A stretch of DNA of 64,000 nt from an uncultured Deferribacteres bacterium. GTDB taxonomy: Bacteria; Zhuqueibacterota; JdFR-76; DREG01. The notes under the pieces were generated by a model. It was given only the letters and a program-made list of their open reading frames with translations. It did not search any database and had not been told where the DNA came from. This document shows, piece by piece, positions 32,406 through 50,957 of the stretch. The DNA is taken from the NCBI GenBank assembly GCA_913009825.1, contig CAJVYQ010000014.1, forward strand, positions 1 through 64,000. Direction: 5' to 3'. Position numbers and translations under genes: made by a program. The number at the start of each line of letters is the position of its first letter. Position 1 is the stretch's first letter.

Positions 32406-35400
32406 TTACTTCGCCACACTCGCGGAAAATTTCAGAACCTGGTTTTGTTCCCTGTTACCAAGGAAGATGGAAGCTTTACTGCCATACTTGTCGATGCCAA
32501 ATGAATAGACCGACCCGGGTGTTAAAGAAGTTGTTTCCGTGCCGATCACTGTTTCGATGTAATTTCCATCCAAATCGCAACGATGGATCCCATATCGATC
32601 CGCGATCAGGAGAAATGGCGTACGATAAATATGAATTTTGCCTCCCGCAGAAGAGATATCAAAACCCTGAGAATCCTCTTCTACTGCGATACGGGTTGGG
32701 AAAACAAATTTTGCCATTTCCCCCTGTCGATCTGCAGTATTACGGCCAAAGCCACCAAAATACCGGATATAATTACCAATACTGTCAAATACAACGACCC
32801 TGTGTGTAGCAAAATCGGTGATGTAAATATTGCCCCGGGAATCAAGCGTAATCCCTTCCGGTTCATTCAACCGGCCGGCATCATAACCGGTAAAACGTAA
32901 GGGAAACAATTCATTACCTTCCGTTTGTGACCCGGAGACATCATAGCGTAACAATGCCTTTTTATTCCTCACATCGATCACATAAAACTCATGGCTTTGG
33001 GGATTGTAAACCGCATCTCTTAGCTGGATTTGGCTGCTCAGATCATTGAAAAGTTTTGAGTCGGGTGGTAACTCGATACCGTTTCGATGAATGATCATAT
33101 TTCGGTCGAATCGTTGAAGGAAAGAAGCAGATTGGAGTGGCATGCCATTAAAAGTAGCGGGACGGAAAACAACTTTTTCAGAAAGAGGCACAGACATGCT
33201 CTGTTTGCCCGGCATTAATACATCGAACTCCTTTTTATAAATGTAGAAATTTTCTTTGTCGATGGTCAGAATAACATGGGCTCCTACATTCAATACCGAA
33301 GAACGAAAATGATTTTGGGAAATTTCCGTCAGGTCTTTCCCGTTTATGTCCACTTTGATTGCAGAAGCGGATGGTTGCGGCAACATGACAAAAATATCCA
33401 CAACGGATGTTTCCCGGCGTAACAGTTCATTAATTATTCCCGGGACCGCTTTGACGGAACGTTTTCTAAAAATTGAACTAACCGGCACGGCGCTGGCCAG
33501 ATAAACTTCGGATTTTGGCAGGGCATACTTTTTAAGCAGGTCCAAACTTTGACGCAGATATTGGAAGCGCAGAAATTTCCGGTCCGCTAATTGTTCATAA
33601 GATTGATCGAACAGACGATCCGGAAAAACCACATTTTGGATGTTTAATCCTTTCAATTCTTTGCTGCCGTCCGCTTTATTTTCGCAGAGATTAATAGCGG
33701 CGTCCGCGTTAAGATACCAAAATTTACCATCGGGGATATTTTGAGTTTTCTGCTTGATAATTTCGTAACATGTTTTTGCTGCATTTCCATAGCCGTTTTC
33801 CCGGAGAATTTCGGCAAAATAATATAAAGAGCGCAAACTGTGTTTTTTATTAATCAGATCCCGGAAAATCTTTTTTGCCTTCGTATATTGCTCAGCGAAA
33901 AACAGACTTCTCCCCTGAATATACCTGGCTTCAAATTGATAGGGTGCGATTACTTTGGCTAATAAATTAGCTGATTCTTCAAAAATTTTCTTTTTATTAC
34001 CCTCATCCCCCTGTATTTCAGCTTCCAGCGATTTGGCAATACCCTGGTAAAACGCAGTTTCATTAGATTTTTTAAAACCTGTGTAATAAAAAATACTGTT
34101 CAATTGATTTATATAATGTAATCGATTTTTTCCGCCTACTGTTGCCGCTTGCCGGAGAAGATATTGGATAATCGCCGCAGCTTCCTTAAACCAATCAGGA
34201 GAGTTTCCGCCCTGGAGAACATTTTGCCAAACATCATACCCCAGTTCTAATTTTGTAAGTTGCTTTAAAAGGTGAGTTTGTAATTTCAGCGATTCTTCCG
34301 TTGGCTGAAATTGATTGAGATATTTTTCCAGTTCGTGTAGTCTGCTATTATTATCGCGGGCCCCTTCCAAAAACAGCAGTCCCCGCCAATATCTGGCATA
34401 ATCCATGAGAATGGAAACACGGGAATCGGTACTTTGATTTAGATTCCGCTGCACAAAAGTATTCAGATTTTCAATCCCGGTCGGTTGATGAACGATAAAT
34501 TGAACTGCACCAAGCCAAAAATAAGCTTCAACAATTCCCCGGGAATTATTTTCCGGCAGCGCCTGAAAATAAAAACTTCGTTTATCGTTCTGATATAAAT
34601 TAAAAAAACTCTCATTCTCATCAATTTGCGAAGTATTGTGATCGGCAGTACCAAAACGGAATCGAACTTCTTTGGCCAACTCCGCTAAATTAACTTTGCG
34701 AATGACATCTATAAATTTTTTCTTGTCCTCATATTGCGAAGTTGAAAAATAGATGTTCAGCCATTTCATTGCCTCTGCATATTTTAAGAATCCACCATAC
34801 GCCTGGGGAACACCTGAATATTTGGCAAAAAGATTCCCATAACGTGTCTGACGAAAGAAATACAATGCGGTTGCCGAAGCAGAAGCTTGCTTGCGGCTAT
34901 CAACCAGATTGGCAAACATAGCTTCAGAAATCACCTGATAAATCTTCCCCGTTTGAAATTTAATATCATTCAACCTGATGTCGGCAGTAATTTTAAACAA
35001 CGGTGAAGCAGTGGATCGTGATAATACTTTATTAAATTGGGCGGCTCCGTCCTGAAAAACAGACAATATCTTGTTGACTTCCAACTGAGTAAGAGATGCT
35101 GCCAGCGTATTAAACTTTCTGATAATTCCTTCCCTGAACCGTGATTCACCAGCCATGAGATAAGATTGCAGCAATACGGAATCCGGAGCATCCGCCGATA
35201 CTTTTAAAAAATTTATATAGGCGTTATCCAATTCTACATCCGGTTGTTCCCCTGTTTCTGCCCGTCTGAAATAACACCAACCTCTTTTCAACTGGGAGGC
35301 ATAGTAGATTTTAGGATAACGTTGTTTAAGGGATGAATATTTCAAAACCCCCTGAAAGGCCTTATAAGCCTGGCGGAAAGCATCCCGGGACTTACCGATC

Positions 35401-35639
35401 TGCTGTTCTTCCATCCCAAGATTGTAATAGGATTCCGCTAAATAATAAGTGGCAATATCCTGGCTCTCCGGGTGTTCGCTAATCCATGATTTTATTTCTG
35501 TGATTGCGGATTTGTAATCACCATTATTAAAAAAGTTCATTCCGGCAGATTTTGTGAACTCCTGGGCAAAAATCCCGGATAATGGGAACAGCAAGAAAAG
35601 AGTGAAAAAAATAAATATTTTTACTGCCTTTTTCGGCAT
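32406..35639 (-). CDS. Exported TPR/NHL-repeat protein, last gene of the envelope operon
   Basis: A 1077-aa protein with a cleavable signal (MPKKAVKIFIFFTLFLLFPLSG, cleavage after FAQ). Residues ~30-650 are helical TPR-like repeats. Residues ~700-850 are beta-rich. The C-terminal ~200 residues form an NHL-type beta-propeller, with blocks such as LNEPEGITLDSRGNIYITDF and RVVVFDSIGNYIRYFGGFG. Such proteins are usually periplasmic or surface scaffolds. It starts 34 bp after the TonB-like gene and closes the seven-gene run. Confidence 0.8.
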   Translation of the reverse strand: MPKKAVKIFIFFTLFLLFPLSGIFAQEFTKSAGMNFFNNGDYKSAITEIKSWISEHPESQDIATYYLAESYYNLGMEEQQIGKSRDAFRQAYKAFQGVLKYSSLKQRYPKIYYASQLKRGWCYFRRAETGEQPDVELDNAYINFLKVSADAPDSVLLQSYLMAGESRFREGIIRKFNTLAASLTQLEVNKILSVFQDGAAQFNKVLSRSTASPLFKITADIRLNDIKFQTGKIYQVISEAMFANLVDSRKQASASATALYFFRQTRYGNLFAKYSGVPQAYGGFLKYAEAMKWLNIYFSTSQYEDKKKFIDVIRKVNLAELAKEVRFRFGTADHNTSQIDENESFFNLYQNDKRSFYFQALPENNSRGIVEAYFWLGAVQFIVHQPTGIENLNTFVQRNLNQSTDSRVSILMDYARYWRGLLFLEGARDNNSRLHELEKYLNQFQPTEESLKLQTHLLKQLTKLELGYDVWQNVLQGGNSPDWFKEAAAIIQYLLRQAATVGGKNRLHYINQLNSIFYYTGFKKSNETAFYQGIAKSLEAEIQGDEGNKKKIFEESANLLAKVIAPYQFEARYIQGRSLFFAEQYTKAKKIFRDLINKKHSLRSLYYFAEILRENGYGNAAKTCYEIIKQKTQNIPDGKFWYLNADAAINLCENKADGSKELKGLNIQNVVFPDRLFDQSYEQLADRKFLRFQYLRQSLDLLKKYALPKSEVYLASAVPVSSIFRKRSVKAVPGIINELLRRETSVVDIFVMLPQPSASAIKVDINGKDLTEISQNHFRSSVLNVGAHVILTIDKENFYIYKKEFDVLMPGKQSMSVPLSEKVVFRPATFNGMPLQSASFLQRFDRNMIIHRNGIELPPDSKLFNDLSSQIQLRDAVYNPQSHEFYVIDVRNKKALLRYDVSGSQTEGNELFPLRFTGYDAGRLNEPEGITLDSRGNIYITDFATHRVVVFDSIGNYIRYFGGFGRNTADRQGEMAKFVFPTRIAVEEDSQGFDISSAGGKIHIYRTPFLLIADRYGIHRCDLDGNYIETVIGTETTSLTPGSVYSFGIDKYGSKASIFLGNREQNQVLKFSASVAK

Positions 35640-35673: not shown

Positions 35674-36264
35674 TTACCAACTAATGATTTTCACTTCGTT
35701 CCGTTTCAGACCATTTTCAATCATATATAAACGGCCCACTTTGATTGGAGTATCCGGATCTACCCCTTCTTTCCGTCTTAATTTTGAGATATCGATGGTC
35801 AATTTTTTGCCAATTGCTCCCACATTAAAGCGAATTGTGATAGGTCCTTCTTTATAAGGTTTAAAAGCCCAGGTTTGTAAAACCCGACCAACCATCTCCC
35901 CAGCCTTGGTATGCCCCGGGCAACGTACATCACTGATCGGATTAAAATTTAACGAACCGTCCGGTCCAACATTGGCTTTAATTTTCACCTCCGCAGTAAG
36001 GTCGATACTTTTCAATTCTGCCCAATCCAAACTTTTAATATTTGGTTTGGACATATCGATGGCAAAGATAAGAGGTCTGATAATAGGTCCGGTCAGGATT
36101 AAACTCTGAGTGCCGGGTCTTTCCGGAGGAACTTCAATTTCCTCAACCTGCCCTAAATCTCCATCGTCTGCGGGCAAGCGTGACATGGCAATCATATAAT
36201 ATGAAATGGCCACCGCTAAAATTAATGCAACCGCGCCCAAAAAAATCAGAAAAATTTTTTTCAA
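35674..36264 (-). CDS. TonB-like membrane-anchored protein
   Basis: A 196-aa protein with a single N-terminal membrane helix (IFLIFLGAVALILAVAISYYMIA), a short acidic linker with Pro (EEIEVPPERPG) and a C-terminal TonB-like domain at ~85-155, where GRVLQTWAFKPYKEGPITIRF matches the TonB_C pattern ...sW.f.P....G. The usual long Pro-Lys spacer is missing, so it might not span the periplasm alone. It follows two exbD genes, supporting a role as force transducer. Confidence 0.75.
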   Translation of the reverse strand: MKKIFLIFLGAVALILAVAISYYMIAMSRLPADDGDLGQVEEIEVPPERPGTQSLILTGPIIRPLIFAIDMSKPNIKSLDWAELKSIDLTAEVKIKANVGPDGSLNFNPISDVRCPGHTKAGEMVGRVLQTWAFKPYKEGPITIRFNVGAIGKKLTIDISKLRRKEGVDPDTPIKVGRLYMIENGLKRNEVKIISW

Positions 36265-36291: not shown

Positions 36292-36924
36292 TTAAAATTG
36301 AATTACAACATTTCTGCGCAAAACGCTTCCTTCCCGTACCATCTTTTTTTCAATACTTTTGCTGTTTCTGATATCATCGATGGTTCCGCCAACACATCCG
36401 TATTGAATATTTTTATACTTTGTTCTCGATAAAATTTCCACCACATCAATAACTACAGCATAGGGCAATTCATCCGGACATCTTATCATGGCAAAATATT
36501 TTTCTTCCGGATGTGCATCCGCCTGGGTAACTAACGTCATAAGTTTAGCTTTAAGAAAGTTCCCACTGCCATCTTGCGAAATAATCGGATATGTATTTTT
36601 TGTGATGATTAATTCCTTTTTTTGCTGCAGACGCTGGGCAACACTCATAAATGTTTTCTTATCAATCTGAGTGATCTCTTTCACCAATTTCTCCGTTACA
36701 AAAGGATCGATATACAAAAACGAATTCTCATCAATCAATTGAATGAGAACCTGGGCATAACCCGGCTCATTTTTGGGAGTAGGGATGAATATTCTTCTTT
36801 CTTCATTAGGTAGAGAAGCGAAAAAGATCGACACGAGAAAAAAGATTAACAAAATAAACACAACATCCATCAGGGAGATCAGTTGCATTTTTTTGTTTGT
36901 GCTGTTCTCTTTTCTAAACGCCAC
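36292..36924 (-). CDS. ExbD/TolR-family protein, copy 2
   Basis: A 210-aa proton-channel subunit with a short cytoplasmic N-terminus, one membrane helix containing the conserved Asp20 (LISLMDVVFILLIFFLV) and a periplasmic domain longer than in ordinary ExbD. Located 4 bp after the other exbD gene. It pairs with the ExbB-like protein to form a proton-motive-force-driven motor. Confidence 0.87.
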   Translation of the reverse strand: MAFRKENSTNKKMQLISLMDVVFILLIFFLVSIFFASLPNEERRIFIPTPKNEPGYAQVLIQLIDENSFLYIDPFVTEKLVKEITQIDKKTFMSVAQRLQQKKELIITKNTYPIISQDGSGNFLKAKLMTLVTQADAHPEEKYFAMIRCPDELPYAVVIDVVEILSRTKYKNIQYGCVGGTIDDIRNSKSIEKKMVREGSVLRRNVVIQF

Positions 36925-36928
36925 AATA

Positions 36929-37531
36929 TTACTCCTGTCGAAACATAGTTCTAAAAACCAGGCTCGGGATTAAATCTTCGTACGAGCTGCATTTCTCAAT
37001 AATAAAATTGATGATACGAAAAGAGACACTTCTATCCGCGCGAATTTCAATTCGATTCGTCAGCTTTGCAATCCGGAATTTCTCCTGCACATAGCGGTCC
37101 AATTGATCGTTGATCAACTTTACAGCCGGCAGATTCATAAACTCACTTTTACCCAATGTGACATATTCCGTTGGTAAAACATCTTCCCGCTGGTAAGTTT
37201 TGGCAAACTTTTTAGCATCTTTGTATGCAACGGCCCCGGCTTTTTCCATATCATAATTTTCGAACGGAAGCAACACAGAAACTTGCAATCCCATTTCCGG
37301 TTTTTCTTTATTCACCGGCATGATTTCGATCATCATTGTCTCCAGTTTTTCGTTCTGGTTAACCTTTGCAGTCCCTGCCGCCTCAGGTAAGTTCAACTCC
37401 AAAGTGGATTGCCCTACTTTGGGCGGAACGGGAGAATAAGTCAACAAAAAAAAGATCAACAGAAGAAAAATAATGTCGATAAAAGTCGGTAATTCAAAAT
37501 CTTTTCTTGCTTCGATCCTACGGAAAGCCAT
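36929..37531 (-). CDS. ExbD/TolR-family protein, copy 1
   Basis: A 200-aa single-helix protein with the conserved membrane Asp19 (LPTFIDIIFLLLIFFLL) and a periplasmic domain. It differs strongly from copy 2 outside the helix, so this is a heterologous ExbD pair and not a recent duplication. It lies 21 bp after the exbB-like gene. Confidence 0.88.
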   Translation of the reverse strand: MAFRRIEARKDFELPTFIDIIFLLLIFFLLTYSPVPPKVGQSTLELNLPEAAGTAKVNQNEKLETMMIEIMPVNKEKPEMGLQVSVLLPFENYDMEKAGAVAYKDAKKFAKTYQREDVLPTEYVTLGKSEFMNLPAVKLINDQLDRYVQEKFRIAKLTNRIEIRADRSVSFRIINFIIEKCSSYEDLIPSLVFRTMFRQE

Positions 37532-37552: not shown

Positions 37553-38932
37553 TTACAACTTTTCCGACACATCCACGTAAATTTGTTCCCATTTACTATA
37601 GATCCAGTCCAGTTTATTTTTGAACAAGTAATAAAACATAACTAAAATAATACCAACACTTAAACCGAAAATAGTTGTCCAGAGAGCTTCATTGATTCCG
37701 CCGGCCAGCTCGGAAATTTTGGCGGCAGTATCCACAATACCTCGCTCACTCTGTGCGGCCAATCTTTGAAAAGCCATAGAAATTCCGGTTACAGTACCAA
37801 ATAAGCCGATCAGAGGAGCGGTAGCCGATAAATTCCAGAGCCATTCGATCTTGGTTTTACCTTTCAGTTGTTCCAATTCCATCAAAGCCCGGTTTTCTAT
37901 CGCCCGGTCAACTTCTTCAGAAGCTTCCATAAATTTGAATCCGTTGGTTTCATGATTGGACAAACCGGCGCCGATGATTCGCCCCGTGGGATATTTCCGG
38001 AATTCTTTGATATCGTCTTCCAATTGTTTGATCTTCTTTTGTCCCACGTCCCGCCAGAAAGTTGCAGATTCAATACGCAATTTATCGATATCGATGCTTT
38101 TATCACCTTCCATTCTGGGGGTTTTTTCAAACAATTTTTCCACCGATTCAATCACTTTCTGCCACCGGATAATGATTCCCCCCTCGCCAAAAAATTTACT
38201 ATCTTTTCTCTGTTGAAATTGGGCTTCATAATTCAATGGGGTAATTATCGACTTTAAATTCCATGGGGTAAATGGAAATATTTTGCTCAAAGTGAGATGG
38301 AAAAAATTATAACTAATTGTGAGAATTCCAAACAGAAGAAACCACCAGATAGCGTGGAATGCCATTTTCCCCAGGAAGGTTGACTTATCAAACACTTTAC
38401 CGTAACCAAGTAGCGTGAGAGGAAACCGGCCGCTTACCGGCAGATACCAAAGCCAGGAAGTCTGTTCATCCTGATCGATGGTTGAACTGAGATTTACCTG
38501 TCTCCCCGGTTGCTGCCAGGCAACCTGAGATTGGTAGATTTGGTTGTTTTCATCAACAGCCTGAACACGAAAAAAATACTTTTTGCCTACTTTAAGCCCC
38601 TCGATTTTACAGGAATCAAGTTGACCTACCCGAATTGTACTTGCCTGGGCAAAAGTGCTGTCCCCTTCTGTGTACATCACTTCGTAATTTTTCAGTTTGT
38701 TCAGATCCGTGTCAATATACTTTCCGTCCTGCATCTCTAAAACCCGCCAGGATAATATAAAATCTACAGTTTTGGGAATACCCAGAAAATTTTTATAAAC
38801 TGTTCTGTCGATACTATCGATCTGAATATTGAATTTTTGCTGTGCATTTACAGAAAACACAAAGCTTATGATCGATAAAAACAAAACTGTTAAGGGTAAC
38901 AACCCCTTCATAAAACTTGCATTGCGATTCAT
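37553..38932 (-). CDS. ExbB/TolQ/MotA-family proton channel with signal peptide and FN3 domain
   Basis: A 459-aa protein of unusual build. It starts with a cleavable signal (ending FSVNAQ), followed by a fibronectin type III domain (about 33-145, with KKYFFRVQAVDENN), a membrane helix near 192-215, a long cytoplasmic helical region, and the MotA/TolQ/ExbB core near 345-445 (APLIGLFGTVTGISMAF and INEALWTTIFGLSVGI). Normal ExbB lacks the FN3 and signal. The FN3 part would sit in the periplasm and could sense or bind the secreted partner proteins encoded in the same operon. Confidence 0.87.
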   Translation of the reverse strand: MNRNASFMKGLLPLTVLFLSIISFVFSVNAQQKFNIQIDSIDRTVYKNFLGIPKTVDFILSWRVLEMQDGKYIDTDLNKLKNYEVMYTEGDSTFAQASTIRVGQLDSCKIEGLKVGKKYFFRVQAVDENNQIYQSQVAWQQPGRQVNLSSTIDQDEQTSWLWYLPVSGRFPLTLLGYGKVFDKSTFLGKMAFHAIWWFLLFGILTISYNFFHLTLSKIFPFTPWNLKSIITPLNYEAQFQQRKDSKFFGEGGIIIRWQKVIESVEKLFEKTPRMEGDKSIDIDKLRIESATFWRDVGQKKIKQLEDDIKEFRKYPTGRIIGAGLSNHETNGFKFMEASEEVDRAIENRALMELEQLKGKTKIEWLWNLSATAPLIGLFGTVTGISMAFQRLAAQSERGIVDTAAKISELAGGINEALWTTIFGLSVGIILVMFYYLFKNKLDWIYSKWEQIYVDVSEKL

Positions 38933-38943
38933 AAGTCATTCTC

Positions 38944-40893
38944 CTATCTTAAATTGGCAATGAGAGATGATCCTGAAACAAAACCCTGATGTAAAGTATT
39001 CAGATAATTTTCAAATATCCTGTCTATTTTTTGCATATTATTATCATTGTTTTCGATGGTTGCAATAATCTCTTCAAACCGGCCGCTATCCTGTAGATAG
39101 TGATTCATGTCGGAAAGCGGATAAAAGCGTTGAATTTCCCCGAATTCCAACAAATTTTGCTCTGTCAACCCGGCTTGTTTTTGCTCTGCTAATTTCACGC
39201 CGGCGTATGCCAACAGGAATTGTGCATCATCCAAAATCAGATGGTCGCGAAATGGAGTTACATAAATGTTCTCAGGAATTCCGGCTGAACCGGTATCGAC
39301 GATTTTTTGAAACAGGTCCCCGGCTTCCTGGAATTTACCATCCTCAAGCCGGAGAAGCCCTAACAAAAAATCACCCAACGGATATCCCGAAACAGAATTC
39401 AGAGATGCCATGGTTTTCTGTTTATCATTTAAAAAATAGTAGGCCCAACTTCTGAAAGCAGCGACAATTTTATCCTCGTCTTTGCGGGTTTTGTGATTCG
39501 TCCAAATCACATCTTTGGTTGTGTAGCGAATAATATCTTCATATTTCTTCTCCAGAAACAAGCCTTGCAGAAAATTTAAATAGGAGAGATGATTCCTGTC
39601 GGCATCAATTTCTCCTTTGGCAGACCCGGATTCCGGAACCCGGCGATAATATTTTGCCGCAGCTTTCAAACCGGCAAATTTATCCCGGGCAGAAAATACT
39701 TCAAGGTCGCCGAGACGCAGCATGGCAGATTCAGGGTAACCCAAACGGTTCGGATTTTTGGCGGAAATTGCCCGGGTTAAATCTTCTTTGGCCAGCAGGT
39801 ATTGTTTGTCGTCCATTTTTTGCAGGCCTCTTTTATACCAGCGTTCGCACGTGAAGGGAGTATAGCTGAAATCCATGGAGAATCGTTCTGCCATATTCCC
39901 CAGCAGATTTTGATTAGGCAGATAGGCCCAATCCAATTTAGGTAAAACCTGGTTAGCCGAAGTAAAAAATGCATTATTGGGCAAATCCAGGTTGATGCCA
40001 AAAGTGTAACTTTCTCTCGAATTCAAACCGAAGCGAAGTTTGACCGGTAGATTTGCCACAATTGAACTGAGATCATATTCTACGCCGGCAAACCAGTCCG
40101 GCGTTCGTTTGCCGGGAGGAACTGCCATGAAATCAAAAGAAAATAAAAAGGAATCGAGAATTTTTTGCCCGGTTTCCGGCAGCAAAGCCAGCCCCAAACG
40201 GACAGAATGAGGGATTTGATCCGCGCCACCCTGAGCAAAGTGAAAATCAGGTGAATTTATATTTTGTAAATTTGCCGCCAAAACCAGCCAGGTAACCGGC
40301 GGTTGATATTTGATACCGACATCGATAGCCGCCGTATTTGCCTTCTGATCGAACATTTTATGTGTAAGCAGTTTGTAATTCACTCCCAAACCAAACCGGT
40401 GATTTCTCAACGTAAACGCCCGGGTTACCGTAAAAAACAAGGCGGTTTGTGCATCCGAAAAAGATTCCCCGGATGTTTGATTGAAACGGTCGCGCATTTC
40501 AAATCCGTCGCTGGTAAGCCCCAGGTAACCTAAACCCAAATTCCATTTTTTCATTTCGCCGCCGAAGCCGCTGTTCACATCCGCCGAAACCAAAAGCTCC
40601 AACGGCAGCGCTACTGCGGCAAAATTGTAATTGGTGGATTCATACATTTTGGAATACATCAAACTTAAACTCAGACCATCGCGAACCAGATCATAAAGTC
40701 CACCCGGATTCCAATAAACCGCATTCGCATTATCCGTGACTGCCGTAAACGCACGTCCCATGCCCAGCGCTCTGGCGTTCACCCCATAACGCAAAAACTC
40801 ACCCGGTTGTCCGGCATCTTGCTGGGCAATAGCAAGATTACTGCAGAATAGTAAAATCAACAAAAGCAAAATTCGATTAAAAGACTTTTTCAT
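38944..40893 (-). CDS. PorV/UPF0164-like outer-membrane barrel with TPR C-terminus
   Basis: A 649-aa protein with signal peptide (cleaved after AIA). The first ~340 residues have the PorV/UPF0164 pattern (FLRYGVNARALGMGRAFTAVTDNANAVYWNPGGL) of a 14-stranded barrel of the FadL type that helps type IX-like secretion. Residues 340-649 are helical with TPR-like repeats. It starts 11 bp upstream of the ExbB-FN3 gene. It is the likely outer-membrane partner of the motor genes. Confidence 0.82.
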   Translation of the reverse strand: MKKSFNRILLLLILLFCSNLAIAQQDAGQPGEFLRYGVNARALGMGRAFTAVTDNANAVYWNPGGLYDLVRDGLSLSLMYSKMYESTNYNFAAVALPLELLVSADVNSGFGGEMKKWNLGLGYLGLTSDGFEMRDRFNQTSGESFSDAQTALFFTVTRAFTLRNHRFGLGVNYKLLTHKMFDQKANTAAIDVGIKYQPPVTWLVLAANLQNINSPDFHFAQGGADQIPHSVRLGLALLPETGQKILDSFLFSFDFMAVPPGKRTPDWFAGVEYDLSSIVANLPVKLRFGLNSRESYTFGINLDLPNNAFFTSANQVLPKLDWAYLPNQNLLGNMAERFSMDFSYTPFTCERWYKRGLQKMDDKQYLLAKEDLTRAISAKNPNRLGYPESAMLRLGDLEVFSARDKFAGLKAAAKYYRRVPESGSAKGEIDADRNHLSYLNFLQGLFLEKKYEDIIRYTTKDVIWTNHKTRKDEDKIVAAFRSWAYYFLNDKQKTMASLNSVSGYPLGDFLLGLLRLEDGKFQEAGDLFQKIVDTGSAGIPENIYVTPFRDHLILDDAQFLLAYAGVKLAEQKQAGLTEQNLLEFGEIQRFYPLSDMNHYLQDSGRFEEIIATIENNDNNMQKIDRIFENYLNTLHQGFVSGSSLIANLR

Positions 40894-40928: not shown

Positions 40929-43900
40929 TTATTTCAGTACCGCTATTTTTCGCATCATGGTTTTAGATGCCGTTTTGACCACGCAGAGATAACCGCCATT
41001 GGCAACAATCTCATCTTTTCCGTTTCGGCCATTCCATCCAATTTCGTTGTAACGTTCTCCGGTTTGAACCGTTTTTCGCCATACATGATTGCCGAAAAGA
41101 TCATAAATATTGATTTCGAAATCCTGCAAATCCAGGTTTTTCACTACAATAACCGTCGATTCAACGAGAGGATTGAACGGATTGGGATGATTCGTCAGAA
41201 ACTCTGCCGGATCATAGTCGGCAATGATGGTGGCGGAAACGGGATTGCTGCTGTTCTCGGCCTGATCAACTGCACGGACAAACACATTTTTGGGGCCGTT
41301 GTTTTCCGATAATTCAAAGTCGACTTCACTTTGATATGTGCCGGATTGCAGCGAAGAGATATCCACGGTCGAAAACGTAGTAAACAATGAATCTTCCGAG
41401 AGCTGAATCTGTTTCAGGAGTCCGGTATCGCTTACGTTCAGATGAATCTTAACATTCCGGTTGTTTGAATATTTTAGATCTCCCTCCGGGGAAGTCGCAA
41501 CAATTTTAACACCGGCGATGAGCGGTTTAATTTTATCAATTGTGATTTGTGTCGAATCAATTTCAAACTGTCCGGCGGAATTTCGCACCGCAATATACAG
41601 TTTTTTGATCTCAAAATCAGAATATAGAGTAAAAGTATATTCGGTTTCAAAGATTTCTCCCGGAATTACATTTTCCCAATTATCGAAGCTGCCTTTATTT
41701 TCCGAAAAGGCTAACTCCTGGAAAACACCGGAAATGGTAGTTATTTTCAAGCCGACTTTTTCCGCGTTGCTGAACAGGGTATCCGCCGTGTCGGACAGAT
41801 CGAATAGTTGCGGTCTGATTTCAAGTTTCTCTGTCAGAATAATCTCATCCGTTAGAACGACACTTTTATTCAGAGCGCTGTCTTCAACAACTCCCCAGCA
41901 TTGAATATTATTATTGGTGAGAAAATTGCGCTCAACCTGGTAATAGGCTGTGGGTTTTCCGGCTACCATTTTTATTTGATCCGTGCCGAACTGAAAAGTC
42001 TGTTTGTTGACCGTCAGGTTGGCATCCTGAGCCAGGATTAAACGAAACAATTTACCCGGCAGCGCATCCGTCGCGTCCAGGGTAACTTCAATGGTTAAAT
42101 CGTCGGTGAGAACAGAATCAACCACACCGGGTTGTGTTTGGTCGGACAAAATAAATTGGTTTAAAACGGGGGCGCCGGTGTCCAGAATCATTGCATCGGT
42201 ATAAATTTGCGAGCTCCAGTTGCCGGCAGAATCCCGCACCGTTGCAAAAACCGTTTTTTTCTGATTATCCCCGGTGGCAAATTGGTATGGTTGAGTGAGG
42301 GCGGCAAGAGCGGTAAATTGTGAATCGGCGCCAACTTCCCAAATCAGGCTATGAGTAATCATTTCATCGGGCGATAAAAATGCAACCTTAATTTGGCTTC
42401 CATTACTAAATTCATAAAGCGTATCTCCGGATGTTTGAATCTGAAACAGAGAAATTCCGGCTAGTGAAGGTTTGGTTTTATCGATTCGAATAGCGGCGTG
42501 AATCACACGGCTTGTATCGCTCAAATTAGGCCCGATCAATTTGAGCCATAAACCGGCGCTTCCTTCCGCATCCGTAAAATCATAATTGAAGGATAACGTG
42601 GAATCATTGATTACCGTCCAATTCTGAATAGTTGCCAAATGACCGGAAAACGCAGCATCCCGGGCAACCATAATCTGCTTCAACACCCCATCAAAAGTTA
42701 ACTGAGCCCGAACCGTATCGCTGTTGCTCCAGCCGGGAAAGGCGACATTTTTCGCATCCGAAGAGGGGGTTAGATCCTGCAATTCGAGGGCAACAGGCTG
42801 AACAATTTTTACTACTTCAATTTCGGCCTGCTTCTTTTCACTCCAGTTTCCCGCCCGGTCACGAACCTGTGAGAAGATGATATGTTTGCCGTACGTATGC
42901 GAGAGGTTCAAATGAAAGCTTCCCGAATAGCTGCTTTTTTCCGGCAAATTAAAAATTTGAGTTTCGCCGGCAGAAAAATTTTCGTCTTCGCTGAAACGGA
43001 TTTCTCCCAGTGCGCCTATCAGAGAGAAAAGTGTATCGTCTCTGGCAGCGACATCGATCACCGCCGAAAATTGGGAGGTAAAAGCGCTCTCAAATTTTAA
43101 GGAATCCAGAACAGGCAGCCTGCGGTCTAAAAAGACATCCCGTTGAAAAGCCGGACTCCAATTACCGGCTTTATCCCGGATTACAACATTGAAGAGAATT
43201 CGACCATCATCCGGTGTCTTCAGCGTGTACGTAGTATCTGCTGAAAATTGGGTATACAAAAGCGAATCCTGTCCGGTTTCCCAAAACACCATTTTCCCCA
43301 ATTCTCCGTCTGATATTTTCATCCTCACCCGAACATTTCTGTTTTGTGTGTAGCTAAAAGTGGTGTCACCCGGCGCCAAAACATGATAGACGGAGAGATC
43401 GTCAATCCCCGGCTCGTTTGTATCTATGATAATATCTGAACTCTGTACATTACTCATGTCGCTCATTTGCGGGCCGAATCCCCGCACAAACAAATGTTTC
43501 AAACCGTCATTCCGACTGAATTTATATTGAAAGCCAATGGTTGTATCACTCTCCGAAGATGAGAAAACATTCCAGGGCCGGTTAAATTCTGCAGTAGAGG
43601 AAAAAGTTTCCTGTTCAGATATCTCAACTTTCAGCAAAACACCCTGGTAAGTAAGTGTCACATTCACAACAGAACTATCCGAATAACCGGCCTCTGCAGC
43701 GAGATACTCATCTGTATTCGGAGACAAGTCCGATAAAGTCAGATTTGTTAACACCACCGTGCCCATCAGCTTGACGCTATCTGCAGCGACAGAACTCAGG
43801 TTGCCCGCTTTATCCCGGATACGCATGGTAGCCACATGGAGTGCCAAAACCTTGGACAAATGCACCGGCAGATCAACATCGAAGCGATTTGTATCGGGCA

Positions 43901-45491
43901 AAACCATCGCAGTTTGCAGCGTATCATCTACATAAAGAAACAGGGAATCCAGCATAAAATCGTCCTGCAAAGAAGCGGAAATAGAAATATCCTGCTGGGT
44001 TGTTACCGAAAATGGGAAGCTTAGATTCTGAATCTGCGGCGAATTTGGATCGTAAGTTATCGCCCTGGAAACCGGCAGACTGTAATTTTCCGCTTTATCG
44101 CTCACTTTGGCATATACAGTTTTTGAATCCGGTGGAAGGCTCAATTCATACTGACCGGATACGGTTCCGGCCTGTGCAGGCAAAGATTTCACATTCCGGG
44201 AAAACGCACTATCCTCCGCTAAAAATACAGAATCTACTCCGGAAGCGTAATTATCTTTAGCAAGATCTTCGATGCCAAAAATATTAAAATCCACCAATCG
44301 CTTCCGGGTCCAGCCGGATTCCGCAGGGTGAGGTACTTCGCCATTTTTATGAAATACCGACACACTGTCCGCCCGGGGAAGATAGGTGTCGATATAGACA
44401 AAAGGCAAATTTTCTGTTTTGGGCATCCACCCGTTCTCAGGATTTTTTGCCGTATCGGCCGACAAAGTATAAAATTCATAGTATCCGTCTTTATCGGCCA
44501 CAAAATTAATTGCGCCGGTCACAGAAAGCAATGGCGAATTAAAAGAGCGTTTTTCGAAAAGGGAATCCTGAATCAGATAAGGCCCCGTTTCATTGGTTTT
44601 GTAATTGAAAAACAGAGAAGCATTGCTAATTCCGCTCCCCAGATATCCATTATGACCCGCTGTCGAGTCTTCTGCTCTGAAAACCACCGGGAAAAAAGCG
44701 CCTCTCAAGATTTTATTTAATTGTGAAACGATGGTAGAAGAGGGAGCATGGGAATCGACAAACAACTGTTTTAATGCCGTGGAATCAGCAGAAGGAGGTT
44801 GAAAATTTCCGTCATAACCGGAAAATGGTGCATCGGGTCGGTGATCGGGAGCCCAGGCGGTATCTCTGGCTGCGATGTAAAATTCATAAGCGCCGTCCCC
44901 AAGAGAATACGGCACCACAAAAAGAATGCTATCCTGCAGCGGTGACTTTTCTACAGCAGAGAAAGTAGAATCCAAATTGATTTTACCCACAAATCGCCAC
45001 GGCTTATTTTCTCCATGCGTGGGACGATAATACAAGTTCACCCGTTTAACGCTTTTAGATGTGACGTCGAACGCAGAGAATGGAATGGCAAAATTATTCC
45101 GGTTGATAAAATTGCCCTGCAGCGTAACAGAAGCCACAGGTTGTTGATCGTCCTGAACCGACGAAACAATATTGGACAAATCACTGCCGGATAAAACGCG
45201 GTAATCATAAGAAACACCGGATTGAAGCCCGTCGACGTCCACAAAAATTTGATTCGGATTACCGGAGCTGGCAATAGTATCCCAAACCATGGCGGAGGTC
45301 TTTTTAAAGAGAAACGTCTTTACTCCCGTAACATTTTCCGAGAAGACCCGGTTACTCCTTCCCATGGTAACAGCCGGTTCCGGAATCAATAAAATAGCAT
45401 CAGCGGCCGATTTTTGTGTGGTTTGTCCGAATAGAAAATTAGTTTCGAGAAAAAGGATCGAGAAGAGTAGAGAGTATTTCCGGAACCGCAT
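40929..45491 (-). CDS. Giant secreted multi-Ig protein with C-terminal FlgD-like sorting domain
   Basis: A 1520-aa secreted protein: signal (cleaved after FLFGQ), many Ig-like/cadherin-like beta domains with repeated DKAGNWS-type ends, and a C-terminal FlgD-like sorting domain (about 1430-1520) with HPNPFNP, YDLFGN and WNGRNGKDEIVANGGYLC. Two copies of a ~300-residue segment are visible (around residues 577 and 880), from LSPNTDEYLAAEAGYSDS and TPSSDAKNVAFPGWSNSD, each ending in a shared DKAGNWS/DSAGNWS block. First gene of the operon that includes the ExbBD genes. Confidence 0.85.
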   Translation of the reverse strand: MRFRKYSLLFSILFLETNFLFGQTTQKSAADAILLIPEPAVTMGRSNRVFSENVTGVKTFLFKKTSAMVWDTIASSGNPNQIFVDVDGLQSGVSYDYRVLSGSDLSNIVSSVQDDQQPVASVTLQGNFINRNNFAIPFSAFDVTSKSVKRVNLYYRPTHGENKPWRFVGKINLDSTFSAVEKSPLQDSILFVVPYSLGDGAYEFYIAARDTAWAPDHRPDAPFSGYDGNFQPPSADSTALKQLFVDSHAPSSTIVSQLNKILRGAFFPVVFRAEDSTAGHNGYLGSGISNASLFFNYKTNETGPYLIQDSLFEKRSFNSPLLSVTGAINFVADKDGYYEFYTLSADTAKNPENGWMPKTENLPFVYIDTYLPRADSVSVFHKNGEVPHPAESGWTRKRLVDFNIFGIEDLAKDNYASGVDSVFLAEDSAFSRNVKSLPAQAGTVSGQYELSLPPDSKTVYAKVSDKAENYSLPVSRAITYDPNSPQIQNLSFPFSVTTQQDISISASLQDDFMLDSLFLYVDDTLQTAMVLPDTNRFDVDLPVHLSKVLALHVATMRIRDKAGNLSSVAADSVKLMGTVVLTNLTLSDLSPNTDEYLAAEAGYSDSSVVNVTLTYQGVLLKVEISEQETFSSTAEFNRPWNVFSSSESDTTIGFQYKFSRNDGLKHLFVRGFGPQMSDMSNVQSSDIIIDTNEPGIDDLSVYHVLAPGDTTFSYTQNRNVRVRMKISDGELGKMVFWETGQDSLLYTQFSADTTYTLKTPDDGRILFNVVIRDKAGNWSPAFQRDVFLDRRLPVLDSLKFESAFTSQFSAVIDVAARDDTLFSLIGALGEIRFSEDENFSAGETQIFNLPEKSSYSGSFHLNLSHTYGKHIIFSQVRDRAGNWSEKKQAEIEVVKIVQPVALELQDLTPSSDAKNVAFPGWSNSDTVRAQLTFDGVLKQIMVARDAAFSGHLATIQNWTVINDSTLSFNYDFTDAEGSAGLWLKLIGPNLSDTSRVIHAAIRIDKTKPSLAGISLFQIQTSGDTLYEFSNGSQIKVAFLSPDEMITHSLIWEVGADSQFTALAALTQPYQFATGDNQKKTVFATVRDSAGNWSSQIYTDAMILDTGAPVLNQFILSDQTQPGVVDSVLTDDLTIEVTLDATDALPGKLFRLILAQDANLTVNKQTFQFGTDQIKMVAGKPTAYYQVERNFLTNNNIQCWGVVEDSALNKSVVLTDEIILTEKLEIRPQLFDLSDTADTLFSNAEKVGLKITTISGVFQELAFSENKGSFDNWENVIPGEIFETEYTFTLYSDFEIKKLYIAVRNSAGQFEIDSTQITIDKIKPLIAGVKIVATSPEGDLKYSNNRNVKIHLNVSDTGLLKQIQLSEDSLFTTFSTVDISSLQSGTYQSEVDFELSENNGPKNVFVRAVDQAENSSNPVSATIIADYDPAEFLTNHPNPFNPLVESTVIVVKNLDLQDFEINIYDLFGNHVWRKTVQTGERYNEIGWNGRNGKDEIVANGGYLCVVKTASKTMMRKIAVLK

Positions 45492-45814: not shown

Positions 45815-48800
45815 TTACTTTAGCAGAAGGCATTTTCCAACCTGTCTAAATTCCGAAGCTGTGAGAATATACAAATACATTCCGGAAGCCACCTGTTCTC
45901 CGGATTGGCTTCGGCCGTTCCATTTTACCCTGAAATGTCCCGGTTGATGTTCCCGGTTGATGAGTGTTTGAATCTTTTCACCTTTTAAATTATATATGGA
46001 AATTCCAACCAATCCCTGGTCAGGAACATCGTATTCAATAGTTGTTTCCGGATTGAAGGGGTTTGGATAATTTGCATAAAGTTTATAGACAACAGGCAAT
46101 TCATTGTCTTCCGCCACACCGGTGACCGTACTACTGCCGCCGCTTTGATCTTCCGAAACCAGCGCAAAGAAATCTGACCAACCCGATTCAAAAACATCAG
46201 ATTTAATGGCCGTGACACGAAAATACCAGGTGGAATCCGGATTATAATATTTGTTCAATGTTTTAATAATTGTATCCGGATCCGTTGCAACGGCAACAAC
46301 TTCTTCCCGGTTCCCCGGATTATCTCTCAGTTGTTCATCTAAGAAATACGATTTTTGATTAGCAAAAACAAAAAGATATTTATCCGCACTGGGAACTTTA
46401 GTCCATTTTATGGCCAAATTATTGGTCACCGTGTCTCGTTTAATTGCCGTGATTATTGGCGGATTGAAAAAGCTGAATTCAACCGGTTTTGTATCCAAAT
46501 TGACGTTACCGGCATAATCTTTCGGCAGAATTTTAAAAAGCAGCGGATGTTCAAAATATTCATCTTTAATTTCAAAATTTACTTCCGTAAATGTTATGTC
46601 ATTCGGAGAAATATTTCCGATTTCCAAAACGACGGAATCAGGATGGTCTTTTTGCGTAACCAGAATAGAATACTTGCGCAGTCCGCTAATATTGTCCACT
46701 ACCGGGGACCAGTTGAAATGAATATCCACCAGCGAGACGCCGGCGGTTGTGTCTGTTGAAGATTTCACAAAAAACGACAATCCCGGATCCGGCGGCGGTG
46801 TATTATCCAGCACCATTTCTGTGATACCGTCCAGTTCAGCAGATGCAGATGAAGGATAGGAAGGATCGTGTCCCCATTGATCAAAACCCATAATTTTTAG
46901 AAAAAGGGATTTGCCTTCGTACAAATTAAATGTCCTCTGATTGGTTAAATCGGACACATAAGAAAAATAGAAGAGGCTGTCATCAGCCAGGTCTTTTCTG
47001 TTTATTTCGACTATCTGAGAAAATTTTTTATAATTTGGTAAATTTTCAAAACCGGAATTGTTTGCCACAAATAGCTTGATCCGTTCCGCACCCCGGAAAT
47101 CTCCTTTTACCGCGGGAGTTTCCCGGTCATTCTTTTTATACAGCCAGAACCATTCCAGCCGCAGGGAATCTGTGGGATCGGGATAGGAAAAATATTTTTT
47201 GCCGGTGGCCGGATTTTTTGCAAAAAGATGATTCAACTTCGGAATGAACACACGGTCAATATAATTGATAACAACGCTGGTGTCATTCAAGCTGTACGCT
47301 TCGTTATTGCCGGCAGGCAGTAGACGCGGTGGATCATTCACTTTTATTTCAAACGGAATGACCTGGTAAACATACTTCGCATTATCCTCCAACTGCTCTC
47401 TGTCCATCCAGCCGGACTGAATAAATTCCGGGGAGCTCGGTAAAAATTCCCTTTCTGTCTTTGTTTGCGGTTCATTCACCTTCCAGCGAATTACTCTTAC
47501 TTTGCCTACCATCTCTTTCCCATTAACCGTCCAGAAAGGATCATGCCAATAACGCTCCCAGGAAACAAAAATACCTGTCGTATCCAGCGGCTGCGCCTGT
47601 GTCAACAGTGAATCCACGGCCGGTATTATGCTTAATCCGGTATCGCTGAACCGCGGCAGGGACCAGGCGCTTTTATCCAGATTCGCGGACAGTAAATTAA
47701 CTGCCTGAACAACCGCGTAGTATTTCGGTCCTGCTTCCACGCTGAATTTAAAGTGCGTTTTACCTACTACATAATCAACCCGATAGGGCGGAGCATCGGA
47801 AAAATCCTGCGGTAAACGGTCCTTAAACAACTTTACATCAAAACGGACGGAATCCAAAGGAACAGCGCTACGAACAGGATCCAAAGCAGCGCTGGTATCC
47901 GGAAATTGCCAGAACACTGACAGCGTATCCATGGAAAATGAGAATTTTTGAATAGTGGGAGCAATGTTGCAATAAGTTGACCCCATACCTGCATTTTGTT
48001 CCGCACTGTTGCCCAACGTATCCTGAGGCAAAATTTTGTACTCATAATCTTGAAATGCTTTTAATACGGTACCATCTGCCTGACGATAGGGATCAAAAAA
48101 ATGAGTTGCCCGGGTTGTATCGATTGGCTTATAATTCACAGCACTTTTTTCTTTGCGGAAGACCAGATAAACGACGGGAAGTAAATCCTGTGATGCCGAC
48201 CAATTTAATGAGATGTTTCCGGTGAATGACGAATCATTCTGCACCGTTAAATTCAGAACCGGTGAAGGCGGCGTTGCATCTTTGAACAGATTCAACCGGT
48301 TGGAATGCGGACTCCAGACTCCGTTGGCAAACAGAGCCTTCGCCGTTATTTGATTGTCGCCTTCACTCAAAGTCACATCAAACCTTTTGGCAGAAGGATC
48401 AACCCGCTGTGAATCGCCATTCACATACACATACATCTCGGCCACATCGGTGATGTCAAAAGTTGGCCAGGAAATTTTTGCTTTTGTTTTATTTGTGTAG
48501 AACTTATTATTCAAATTTAAAAACGTTTCTTCGAATGAAAGTGCCGGAGGTAACGGCGGCCACTGGGAAACTTCCCATGCGGACTTTCCCACATCTCTCT
48601 CATTTCCCACATTGTCTACAGATGTGATGCGATACATGGTTTTTGCCCGCACGCCAATATTGGCAAAAGGATCATTAAATTTATAGATCGAACCGTTGGT
48701 AGCATCAACAGAGCCGATAACACGGAAAGTGTCTGTATCGCCGATTTTTCGATAGATATTATATTTTTGTACGCCGCTCACCGGATCTGTAGATTTTTCC

Positions 48801-50380
48801 CACTCGATTCTGAAATAGCCGCCGCCGGCAAAAGTTTGGTCAAATTCGACAAAAATATTCAGATTAGAAATATCTTCCGGAGCAAAAACATCCTGATAAT
48901 TACCGATCAAAAGACTATCGGGATTAATGCGTGACCATTCGCTATTGTTCCCGGCAATGTCCCTAAATTGAGCGCGATATTTATAAAAATGGCCATGAAC
49001 AAACCAATCATCATTTTTACCGCCGCTGGTAAAATCGAAGAGATAAGACGGATCTTTACCGGCAAAATCTTCAATGGATATCCATTGGGAAAACCATTTT
49101 TCGAAAAACTGCATGCCCGGCTGCCATTCGTCATTAAAAAACTTAGAACTATCCCTCACCGCCTGAAAACGGACGGAATCTGCTTTGGCCAGTCCGGTGA
49201 ATCCAGGTTGCGTATCCGGATTGAAGATAAACACTTCGTTCCGGTTTCCTTTTTTATACCAGGTTTTGTCATGGTAACCCATGTTGGGCAGATCATCGAC
49301 GGCGTGATCCAACTCATAATCAAAACCTGAATTCACTTTCCAATCAAATACGGGCGAAGCCGGCGAAGTGGCATCTGAAATAAACGGGCCTATTTCCTGG
49401 CCGTCACCCACATTTAATCCGGCATCCAATGCGGCAATTTTATAATAATATCTAATCCCTTCCTGCAAATCGCCTGCCGTGTCATAATAGTGGAATTTCC
49501 CATCAAGCGGATTTCCATTAATAAATACTGTATCGATAGCAACAAACGGATCCAGTCCTTTTCTTCTGAAAATGATAAATCCCTGTACATAGCTTGTCGG
49601 ATCGGAAACATTATGCCAAAACAGATCCATAGCGCCGGCCGGTGCTTCGTGGCCGCGGGAAGAATTCAGAAAATCCGGCATATCCGTATCCTGTGTGCTG
49701 TAGACGGTATCTGAATATGCAATTACGCTGTCTGCGGTAAATCCCTTCAGATAAAAACCATATTTTACATTATTTTTTAAATTCGCAAAAGTTGTTTTAA
49801 TAATTCCGCTTGCATTGGTTTTAGCTAAGCCGGATTGATTCCCCGGAGTGGATTCTCCTGGATTTCGGGTATCAAAGATATAAATCCATTGGTCATAGAG
49901 ATCGTCACTTTGCATCCAGGAAATTGTATTAGAAGTACCACCGGAATATTCAGGTTCCATAAAAATAAAAGGTTTCACACGAAGATCATAAATCAGAGTA
50001 TCCGCTTCCATCGTTCCATCCGGATGAATGCCACCGGCAACAACCGGAAGCAGATAGTGACTGCCATTAATTTCTTTTGGCATAATGTTCAATTTATATG
50101 AAATGAGACCCTTATCACTAATAATGGTTTCTTTCCTCAATGATATGAATTGAGGTTGATTCAGAATTTTAATGAATAACGAACCCAGATTATCGCCGGT
50201 AATGGTAGCCTTTATCCATAATGTTGCAGAATCACCCACATTCATCACCATGGGTGCTTTAGGATAACATTCAAATTTCACCTTCACCTCTGCATGTAAT
50301 ACGGAAACAGCAAAAAATCCTGTAAATAGAAATGCAAATTTTACAAGAAACGCTTTATTCATTTTTGAGATAAAAAACAT
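45815..50380 (-). CDS. Giant secreted FN3-repeat protein with FlgD-like sorting domain
   Basis: A 1521-aa protein. The start at 50380 is chosen over an upstream one because GGAGG lies six bases before this ATG and a signal peptide follows directly (KAFLVKFAFLFTGFFAVSVLHA). The rest is beta-sandwich repeats with FN3-like blocks (e.g. VSGVQKYNIYRKIGDTDTF, RYYYKIAALDAGLN), and a C-terminal sorting domain with NYPNPFNPETTIEYDVP and SGMYLYIL. The gene is 323 bp from the operon start at 45491 and on the same strand, so it may be a partly separate unit. Likely a cell-surface or extracellular protein. Confidence 0.85.
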   Translation of the reverse strand: MFFISKMNKAFLVKFAFLFTGFFAVSVLHAEVKVKFECYPKAPMVMNVGDSATLWIKATITGDNLGSLFIKILNQPQFISLRKETIISDKGLISYKLNIMPKEINGSHYLLPVVAGGIHPDGTMEADTLIYDLRVKPFIFMEPEYSGGTSNTISWMQSDDLYDQWIYIFDTRNPGESTPGNQSGLAKTNASGIIKTTFANLKNNVKYGFYLKGFTADSVIAYSDTVYSTQDTDMPDFLNSSRGHEAPAGAMDLFWHNVSDPTSYVQGFIIFRRKGLDPFVAIDTVFINGNPLDGKFHYYDTAGDLQEGIRYYYKIAALDAGLNVGDGQEIGPFISDATSPASPVFDWKVNSGFDYELDHAVDDLPNMGYHDKTWYKKGNRNEVFIFNPDTQPGFTGLAKADSVRFQAVRDSSKFFNDEWQPGMQFFEKWFSQWISIEDFAGKDPSYLFDFTSGGKNDDWFVHGHFYKYRAQFRDIAGNNSEWSRINPDSLLIGNYQDVFAPEDISNLNIFVEFDQTFAGGGYFRIEWEKSTDPVSGVQKYNIYRKIGDTDTFRVIGSVDATNGSIYKFNDPFANIGVRAKTMYRITSVDNVGNERDVGKSAWEVSQWPPLPPALSFEETFLNLNNKFYTNKTKAKISWPTFDITDVAEMYVYVNGDSQRVDPSAKRFDVTLSEGDNQITAKALFANGVWSPHSNRLNLFKDATPPSPVLNLTVQNDSSFTGNISLNWSASQDLLPVVYLVFRKEKSAVNYKPIDTTRATHFFDPYRQADGTVLKAFQDYEYKILPQDTLGNSAEQNAGMGSTYCNIAPTIQKFSFSMDTLSVFWQFPDTSAALDPVRSAVPLDSVRFDVKLFKDRLPQDFSDAPPYRVDYVVGKTHFKFSVEAGPKYYAVVQAVNLLSANLDKSAWSLPRFSDTGLSIIPAVDSLLTQAQPLDTTGIFVSWERYWHDPFWTVNGKEMVGKVRVIRWKVNEPQTKTEREFLPSSPEFIQSGWMDREQLEDNAKYVYQVIPFEIKVNDPPRLLPAGNNEAYSLNDTSVVINYIDRVFIPKLNHLFAKNPATGKKYFSYPDPTDSLRLEWFWLYKKNDRETPAVKGDFRGAERIKLFVANNSGFENLPNYKKFSQIVEINRKDLADDSLFYFSYVSDLTNQRTFNLYEGKSLFLKIMGFDQWGHDPSYPSSASAELDGITEMVLDNTPPPDPGLSFFVKSSTDTTAGVSLVDIHFNWSPVVDNISGLRKYSILVTQKDHPDSVVLEIGNISPNDITFTEVNFEIKDEYFEHPLLFKILPKDYAGNVNLDTKPVEFSFFNPPIITAIKRDTVTNNLAIKWTKVPSADKYLFVFANQKSYFLDEQLRDNPGNREEVVAVATDPDTIIKTLNKYYNPDSTWYFRVTAIKSDVFESGWSDFFALVSEDQSGGSSTVTGVAEDNELPVVYKLYANYPNPFNPETTIEYDVPDQGLVGISIYNLKGEKIQTLINREHQPGHFRVKWNGRSQSGEQVASGMYLYILTASEFRQVGKCLLLK

Positions 50381-50957
50381 CTTATTCCTCCGTTTAAAGC
50401 AGAACCGCGGTTTTATTATTTCACAGATAAATTTGCCATTTTTTTCAAAAACAGTTTCCCTTTCCTGTGTCTGTCTCACGCTGAAACAGAAAAAGGTTAT
50501 TGAAACTTTATGAAGCAAAAAACCCCATAAATTATCTGTTTTTTTTATTGTTACACAAAATATGGCAATTATTATTCCAGTGAAGAAATTCTTATTGTCC
50601 AATGTGGAAATGCAAAAAATATTCTTTTCATCCCGGCAGTTATATATTATATTGTAACTATTCAGGTATGCTCCATAATATTAACCGGTTTCAAGCTTCG
50701 ACTCCGCTCAGCATGGCTTTCAAGTTTATCCTGAGCCCTTCGACAAGCCCAGGATAAACTTAGTCGAAGGTTTATCTCACATCAGGAAACCGGTACACCG
50801 GAATAGTTACATTATATTTATGTATTGAGCGGAAAAGATTTTAGGCGTTTTTTACTTTTGGCACCAAATATTTAATTGAATTCCTTAACCAAAATCGACT
50901 CTTCATTTACTGTTAGTCCGAAACAAACAGAGTAAGCTCAGAGCCTATATTCTGAAT
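50381..50957. other. Upstream gap of the giant protein gene
   Basis: Contains the family 2 element at 50654-50810. The remainder is AT-rich; no gene seen. The promoter of the 1521-aa gene should lie between about 50385 and 50650. Confidence 0.45.
50654..50810. repeat. MITE-like element, family 2, copy C
   Basis: A 157-bp copy with ends gtaactattcaggtatgctc and ccggaatagttac. Its interior (gcttcgactccgctcagcatgg and tcgaaggtttatctcacatc) is nearly identical to that of copy A at 14106-14290. Confidence 0.8.

Follow-up and report, generated by a model that had tools for sequence, protein, structure and literature searches.

ExbB-type proteins form a pentamer round a pair of ExbD subunits, and their N-terminus is periplasmic. 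Whether, and how, the pentamer of ExbB or GldL is held in the envelope, and which periplasmic parts it contacts, are open questions for these 5:2 motors (PMC9389320). In the Has system of Serratia marcescens, ExbB carries a signal peptide followed by a periplasmic N-terminal extension that binds the C-terminal domain of HasB, this extension of about 50 residues being Ala/Pro-rich and disordered (PMC9008036). The AglRQS/Glt gliding system of Myxococcus, the core of which is also found in other bacteria, comprises one TolQ-like protein, two TolR-like proteins, a TonB-motif protein and TPR proteins (PMC3169522). A search of the literature returned no description of an FN3 domain on ExbB, which is weak evidence as most subscription papers lay outside the search, and nothing relevant on type IX secretion or TolQ in candidate division KSB1 or on TtpC.

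The protein considered here, FN3-ExbB, is encoded within a stretch of 64,000 nucleotides (the window) and was recognized by matches to Pfam MotA_ExbB and fn3 and from AlphaFold and Foldseek results. Its open reading frame (459 aa, 37553..38932, minus strand, ATG start, stop included) was found at exactly the coordinates reported in an earlier note on this DNA; the opposite (plus) strand of 37553-38932 contained short frames alone and no gene was found there. The ATG is preceded by a GGAG-like ribosome site, and the gene follows a 649-codon barrel gene by 11 bases and is separated by 21 bases from the next gene, which places it inside an operon. Pfam MotA_ExbB (PF01618) matched residues 316-449 with an E value of 1.9e-22 and a score of 79.8 bits, above the cut-off of 22.9. 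This channel core (37586..37987, minus strand) holds TM2 and TM3, while TM1 was placed by hydropathy at residues 191-213 (38294..38362, minus strand). The AlphaFold2 model (mean pLDDT 82) contained helices at residues 186-212, corresponding to TM1, 362-396 and 402-458 and matched TolQ/ExbB structures in Foldseek, which gives the protein three TM helices in the ExbB fold. The GTxTGI motif of TM2 and the EALWTT motif of TM3, both of which lie on the proton path of ExbB, were conserved in the FN3-ExbB family. Scores against the TolQ equivalog TIGR02796 (66.4, cut-off 221) and the TonB-system ExbB equivalog TIGR02797 (34.1, cut-off 206) were both below threshold. Judged by these NCBIfam cut-offs, the predicted channel is a member of the MotA/TolQ/ExbB group that is neither TolQ nor TonB-system ExbB.

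The N-terminus of the protein, residues about 1-30 (38843..38932, minus strand), was judged by eye to be a Sec-type signal peptide, MNRNASFMKG-LLPLTVLFLSIISFVFS-VNA, with QQ following the predicted junction. Computed hydropathy indicated a hydrophobic stretch at residues 10-28, and an Ala/Ser-Gln junction at the end of the signal recurred in most FN3-ExbB orthologues, findings that agree with the N-terminal signal claimed in the earlier note. We infer that the peptide is cleaved; that this segment is instead an uncleaved anchor is less likely in view of the recurrent junction. Residues 33-143 (38504..38836, minus strand) were assigned to an FN3 domain on several grounds. Pfam fn3 (PF00041) matched residues 79-130 with an E value of 1.8e-4 and a score of 22.1 bits, below the curated cut-off of 25, and 10 of 19 family members matched fn3 individually (best E value 3e-5). 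A profile of these 19 members, compared with the PDB, found titin FN3 (7e-6) and fibronectin (2e-4) as well as TolQ/ExbB. Structure prediction, suggested in the earlier note as a check, returned a beta-sandwich at residues 34-140 in the AlphaFold2 model, and every Foldseek match of this model at E values of 0.001 or less was either TolQ/ExbB or of FN3 type, the latter including fibcon (3teu, E value 2.7e-4, TM 0.65 by target). Thus, the FN3 domain first noticed in the sequence was upheld by Pfam, although under its cut-off, by the family profile and by the predicted structure, and residues from about 33 to 143 are, on sequence and model evidence, an FN3 fold. In line with the placement proposed in that note and with standard ExbB topology, this domain should sit in the periplasm. 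Between it and TM1 is a conserved juxtamembrane segment (residues 158-190, 38363..38461, minus strand) with the consensus W..Y.PL.GR.PL...G.G..YD.ST..GK. Mean majority identity across the family was 0.54 for this segment, 0.40 for FN3 and 0.67 for the channel. Strong conservation was not seen among the surface residues of FN3, the best-conserved positions of which were mostly fold residues. Within KSB1, a loop of the domain at residues ~45-55 (KNFLGIPK) is conserved.

The order of genes in the operon, all on the minus strand, was giant, giant, PorV/PorQ barrel with TPR-like tail, FN3-ExbB, ExbD1, ExbD2, TonB-like protein and TPR protein with NHL propeller. Nearly all of the complete loci examined from KSB1 retained this order from the giants to the TPR-propeller protein, as did L104 and L105 from a second phylum. 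Both ExbD1 (200 aa, 36929..37531, Pfam ExbD E value 5e-8) and ExbD2 (210 aa, 36292..36924, E value 1.3e-7) had the membrane Asp of a proton-channel partner, at residues 19 and 20 respectively, in 19 of 19 sequences each. The following gene (35674..36264) encodes a 196-aa protein with an N-terminal helix, which is its one membrane helix, a short linker of ~37 residues and a TonB-CTD-like domain. Comparison of its profile with the PDB (seven of eight matches to TonB, best E value 0.028) and of its AlphaFold model (pLDDT 89) with known structures by Foldseek (top match TonB CTD 1xx3, E value 7e-3) gave matches that were weak singly but consistent together and that point to a TonB-CTD-like protein. 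In L104 (7884-8429), L105 (11607-12173) and L093 (10003-10457), the corresponding protein appeared by eye to be lipoprotein-like, i.e., with a Cys ending the signal. The last protein in this order (1077 aa, 32406..35639) has a signal peptide, TPR and YfiO matches and an NHL beta-propeller (E value 3.4e-8), and its profile found NHL propeller structures.

On the other side of FN3-ExbB, the 649-aa protein (38944..40893) is an outer-membrane barrel of the PorV/PorQ family with a TPR-like C-terminal part (NF033709 E value 1.2e-21). The NF033709 score of this barrel was 77.7 bits, compared with a cut-off of 90 and a score of 100.1 for the second-phylum barrel of L104. The two giant proteins, one Ig-rich and secreted (1520 aa, 40929..45491) and the other secreted (1595 aa, 45815..50602), have weakly matching type IX-like tails, with Por_Secre_tail scores of 25.8 bits (cut-off 27) for the former and 27.2 bits with neighbours or 20.6 alone for the latter. 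The gene for the 1595-aa giant is separated from the next gene by 323 bases. The window genome encodes 83 type IX tails at E values up to 0.001. Just upstream of the operon, a 954-aa PorE-like protein (window 52680-55544) with PD40 propeller, CarboxypepD_reg and OmpA matches scored 280 bits against NF052230 (cut-off 600). A CHASE2 protein beside a CHAT and TPR protein (window 57838-62365) forms a possible sensor and protease-like pair.

A search of 82 genomes of candidate division KSB1 identified full-length matches to the ExbB profile, including the FN3 part, in about 26 genomes and partial or divergent matches in a few more. The operon occurs twice in the window genome, the other copy (L040) being diverged and ~30 kb away. 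Outside KSB1, matches were noted in three further genomes, two of them from one phylum (the second phylum), and a related long ExbB was present in 15 of 17 genomes of that phylum. The N-termini of these proteins read as a signal peptide followed by an FN3-like domain, which Pfam alone barely detects, and comparison of the KSB1 and second-phylum FN3 profiles gave an hhalign E value of 1.8e-7. Absence of FN3 from close homologues would, according to the earlier note, have pointed to a local gene fusion artefact; instead, the domain was present in full-length KSB1 orthologues and in the second phylum, and such an artefact was ruled out by this distribution. Retention of the architecture in two phyla beside genes for a motor, a barrel and giant proteins argues for a real surface machine as opposed to a chance fusion, and FN3-ExbB looks like a part of this so far uncharacterised machine.

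Variant loci differed in the module carried by ExbB and in additional genes. Tandem long ExbB genes were found in L086 (7431-10383), L097 (7673-10724) and L106 (5773-10267 and 15490-17088), and five of the proteins encoded there were aligned on an N-terminal domain of TonB-CTD-like type, with an hhalign E value of 2e-5 against the TonB-like family of the operon as opposed to 0.06 against FN3. The N-terminus of L086 ExbB also matched Pfam TonB_C (0.0024). Thus, in some lineages a TonB-CTD-like domain appears, from these alignments, to have taken the place of FN3 as the periplasmic module of ExbB, and the TonB-like nature of the module in divergent operons suggests that it works in contact with the transducer. 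In several KSB1 loci, an extra gene between the PorV-like barrel and FN3-ExbB encodes an FN3-like domain together with a probable outer-membrane barrel (L045 11295-12398, L046 11102-12214, L047 8477-9568, L048 8676-9842, L050 8675-9748 and L092 10279-11376); this gene is missing from the window copy of the operon. In the second phylum, a stand-alone protein with a signal peptide, an FN3-like domain and a single helix is encoded directly upstream of FN3-ExbB (L117 409-951, L121 404-955). Together with the FN3-barrel genes of KSB1, these proteins indicate that modules of FN3 type recur in the periplasmic portion of the machine.

We regard the chances as evenly balanced that FN3-ExbB is the channel subunit of a Ton/Tol/Agl-like proton motor, in which an FN3 crown docks periplasmic force-taking parts that relay force to surface proteins. 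The elements on which this proposal is based, i.e., the signal peptide, the folded FN3, the ExbB core and the two-phylum operon, come from sequence and from models of single chains. One ExbB, two ExbDs and the TonB-CTD-like protein would make up the motor set of an envelope-spanning machine encoded by one operon. With five ExbBs surrounding each ExbD pair, five FN3 domains would form a periplasmic crown round the ExbD shaft. This crown may hold the TonB-CTD-like domain, the ExbD periplasmic domains or the TPR-propeller protein against the motor, which proton flow would turn or stroke; the HasB-binding extension of Serratia ExbB is a precedent for such docking (PMC9008036). The invariant membrane Asp of both ExbDs and the conserved GTxTGI and EALWTT motifs of ExbB speak for this reading, whereas the poorly conserved FN3 surface and the individually weak TonB-CTD matches speak against it. 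The TonB-CTD-like protein and the TPR-propeller protein might then hand force on to the TPR tail of the PorV-like barrel and, by way of it, to the giant surface proteins, which would be moved, positioned or helped in export, although sequence cannot tell which. The ~37-residue linker of the TonB-like protein fits such a relay as opposed to direct reach to the outer membrane, while its lipoprotein-like character in the second phylum and L093 leaves its role as a transducer of the inner membrane in doubt. A more tentative proposal, which we hold with less than even confidence, is that the complex represents an undescribed proton-driven surface machine, found in two phyla or more, the ring of which bears an exchangeable periplasmic coupling domain (mostly FN3, sometimes TonB-CTD-like) and thereby unites ring and part of the transducer in a single polypeptide.

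What the FN3 crown might contact was considered in several other ways. The crown could anchor the pentamer of ExbB, through peptidoglycan or a protein of the envelope, and leave rotation to the ExbD pair instead of ExbB, a rather unlikely reading that speaks to the named open question of how ExbB/GldL pentamers are anchored (PMC9389320) and for which the FN3-like and probable barrel protein encoded just upstream in several relatives provides a possible anchor; against it, the window copy is without that upstream gene and the FN3 part of the window ExbB matched none of the peptidoglycan-binding families in Pfam. The earlier note had suggested that FN3 of ExbB could connect the motor to the secreted proteins rich in FN3 and Ig that the locus encodes. 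Direct binding of this kind is very unlikely, for although the ExbB FN3 profile found FN3-like repeats in giants of sister operons (L044 2e-6, L011 1e-5), such matches reflect general FN3 similarity, and only the 1595-aa giant of the two in the window matched, weakly (0.02). The contact is also topologically doubtful since giants with type IX-type tails should end outside the outer membrane. Likelier contacts, as judged from operon content, would be the periplasmic partners, namely the TonB-CTD-like protein, ExbD1 and ExbD2, the TPR-propeller protein and the TPR tail of the barrel. That FN3 merely aids folding, stability or insertion is hardly to be expected: its lower conservation relative to the channel (0.40 compared with 0.67) would be consistent with a passive role, but the domain was kept across KSB1 and the second phylum and divergent members apparently swap it without losing it.

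A different possibility, and an improbable one, is that the FN3-ExbB complex stands in for GldL/GldM as the power source of type IX secretion. SprA_N was found in 78 of 82 KSB1 genomes and in 14 of 17 second-phylum genomes, and the operon encodes a PorV-family barrel and tailed proteins. GldM_4th was absent from all 82 KSB1 genomes, although in the search over 290 genomes this model matched two others at 2e-22 or better. In contrast, about 50 SprA-bearing KSB1 genomes were without full-length FN3-ExbB, and ordinary TolQ-like ExbB and ExbD beside SprA in two KSB1 genomes (G058 and G066) provide a better candidate. A universal type IX motor was not favoured, SprA being far more widespread in KSB1 than FN3-ExbB. 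Since most SprA-bearing KSB1 genomes are without FN3-ExbB, its motor is probably accessory to type IX secretion as opposed to its general engine. In G058 (L100, 1411-9800) and G066 (L098, 4141-12617), SprA lay one gene from ordinary TolQ-like ExbB and ExbD, and a similar arrangement was suggested by contig coordinates in G059, G060, G063 and G064. As no GldM was found in KSB1, these SprA-adjacent genes may encode another kind of type IX motor.

Returning to the preferred reading of FN3-ExbB as the channel of a force-relaying motor, the window complex resembles AglRQS/Glt and Tol-Pal, as far as gene content indicates, in parts list only. With AglRQS/Glt it shares one TolQ-like, two TolR-like, a TonB-like and a TPR component; the window operon differs in its PorV-family barrel, tailed giants and NHL propeller, and the accessible part of the AglRQS/Glt description reports no FN3 on AglR (PMC3169522). 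Like Tol-Pal (TolQ-TolR-TolA-TolB-CpoB), it combines motor, transducer, beta-propeller and TPR parts. In NCBIfam and PDB comparisons its channel was nearest to TolQ, yet far below the TolQ cut-off; its propeller is of NHL type and fused to TPR, and the operon contains no Pal. It shares with GldL/GldM of type IX secretion and gliding the association of a proton motor with barrels of PorV type and with tailed proteins of the cell surface, but its channel is of the MotA_ExbB type and no GldM_4th was detected in the 82 KSB1 genomes. The operon suggests a way in which SprA-bearing phyla without detected GldM might transmit proton-derived force to proteins at the surface. The claim in the earlier note that ordinary ExbB, TolQ and MotA proteins are without a cleavable signal and FN3 domain requires qualification, as an ExbB with a signal peptide and a periplasmic extension is known from S. 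marcescens (PMC9008036), although the Serratia extension is disordered and not FN3. The long Serratia ExbB, the extension of which touches the transducer, is similar to FN3-ExbB in its signal peptide and periplasmic extension and differs in that a disordered Ala/Pro-rich sequence is present in place of an FN3 domain that is folded in the AlphaFold model and encoded in a different operon. What is new is thus a folded domain in the position of a known disordered one, and its conservation on ExbB offers a definite handle on the envelope hold and periplasmic contacts of 5:2 motors.
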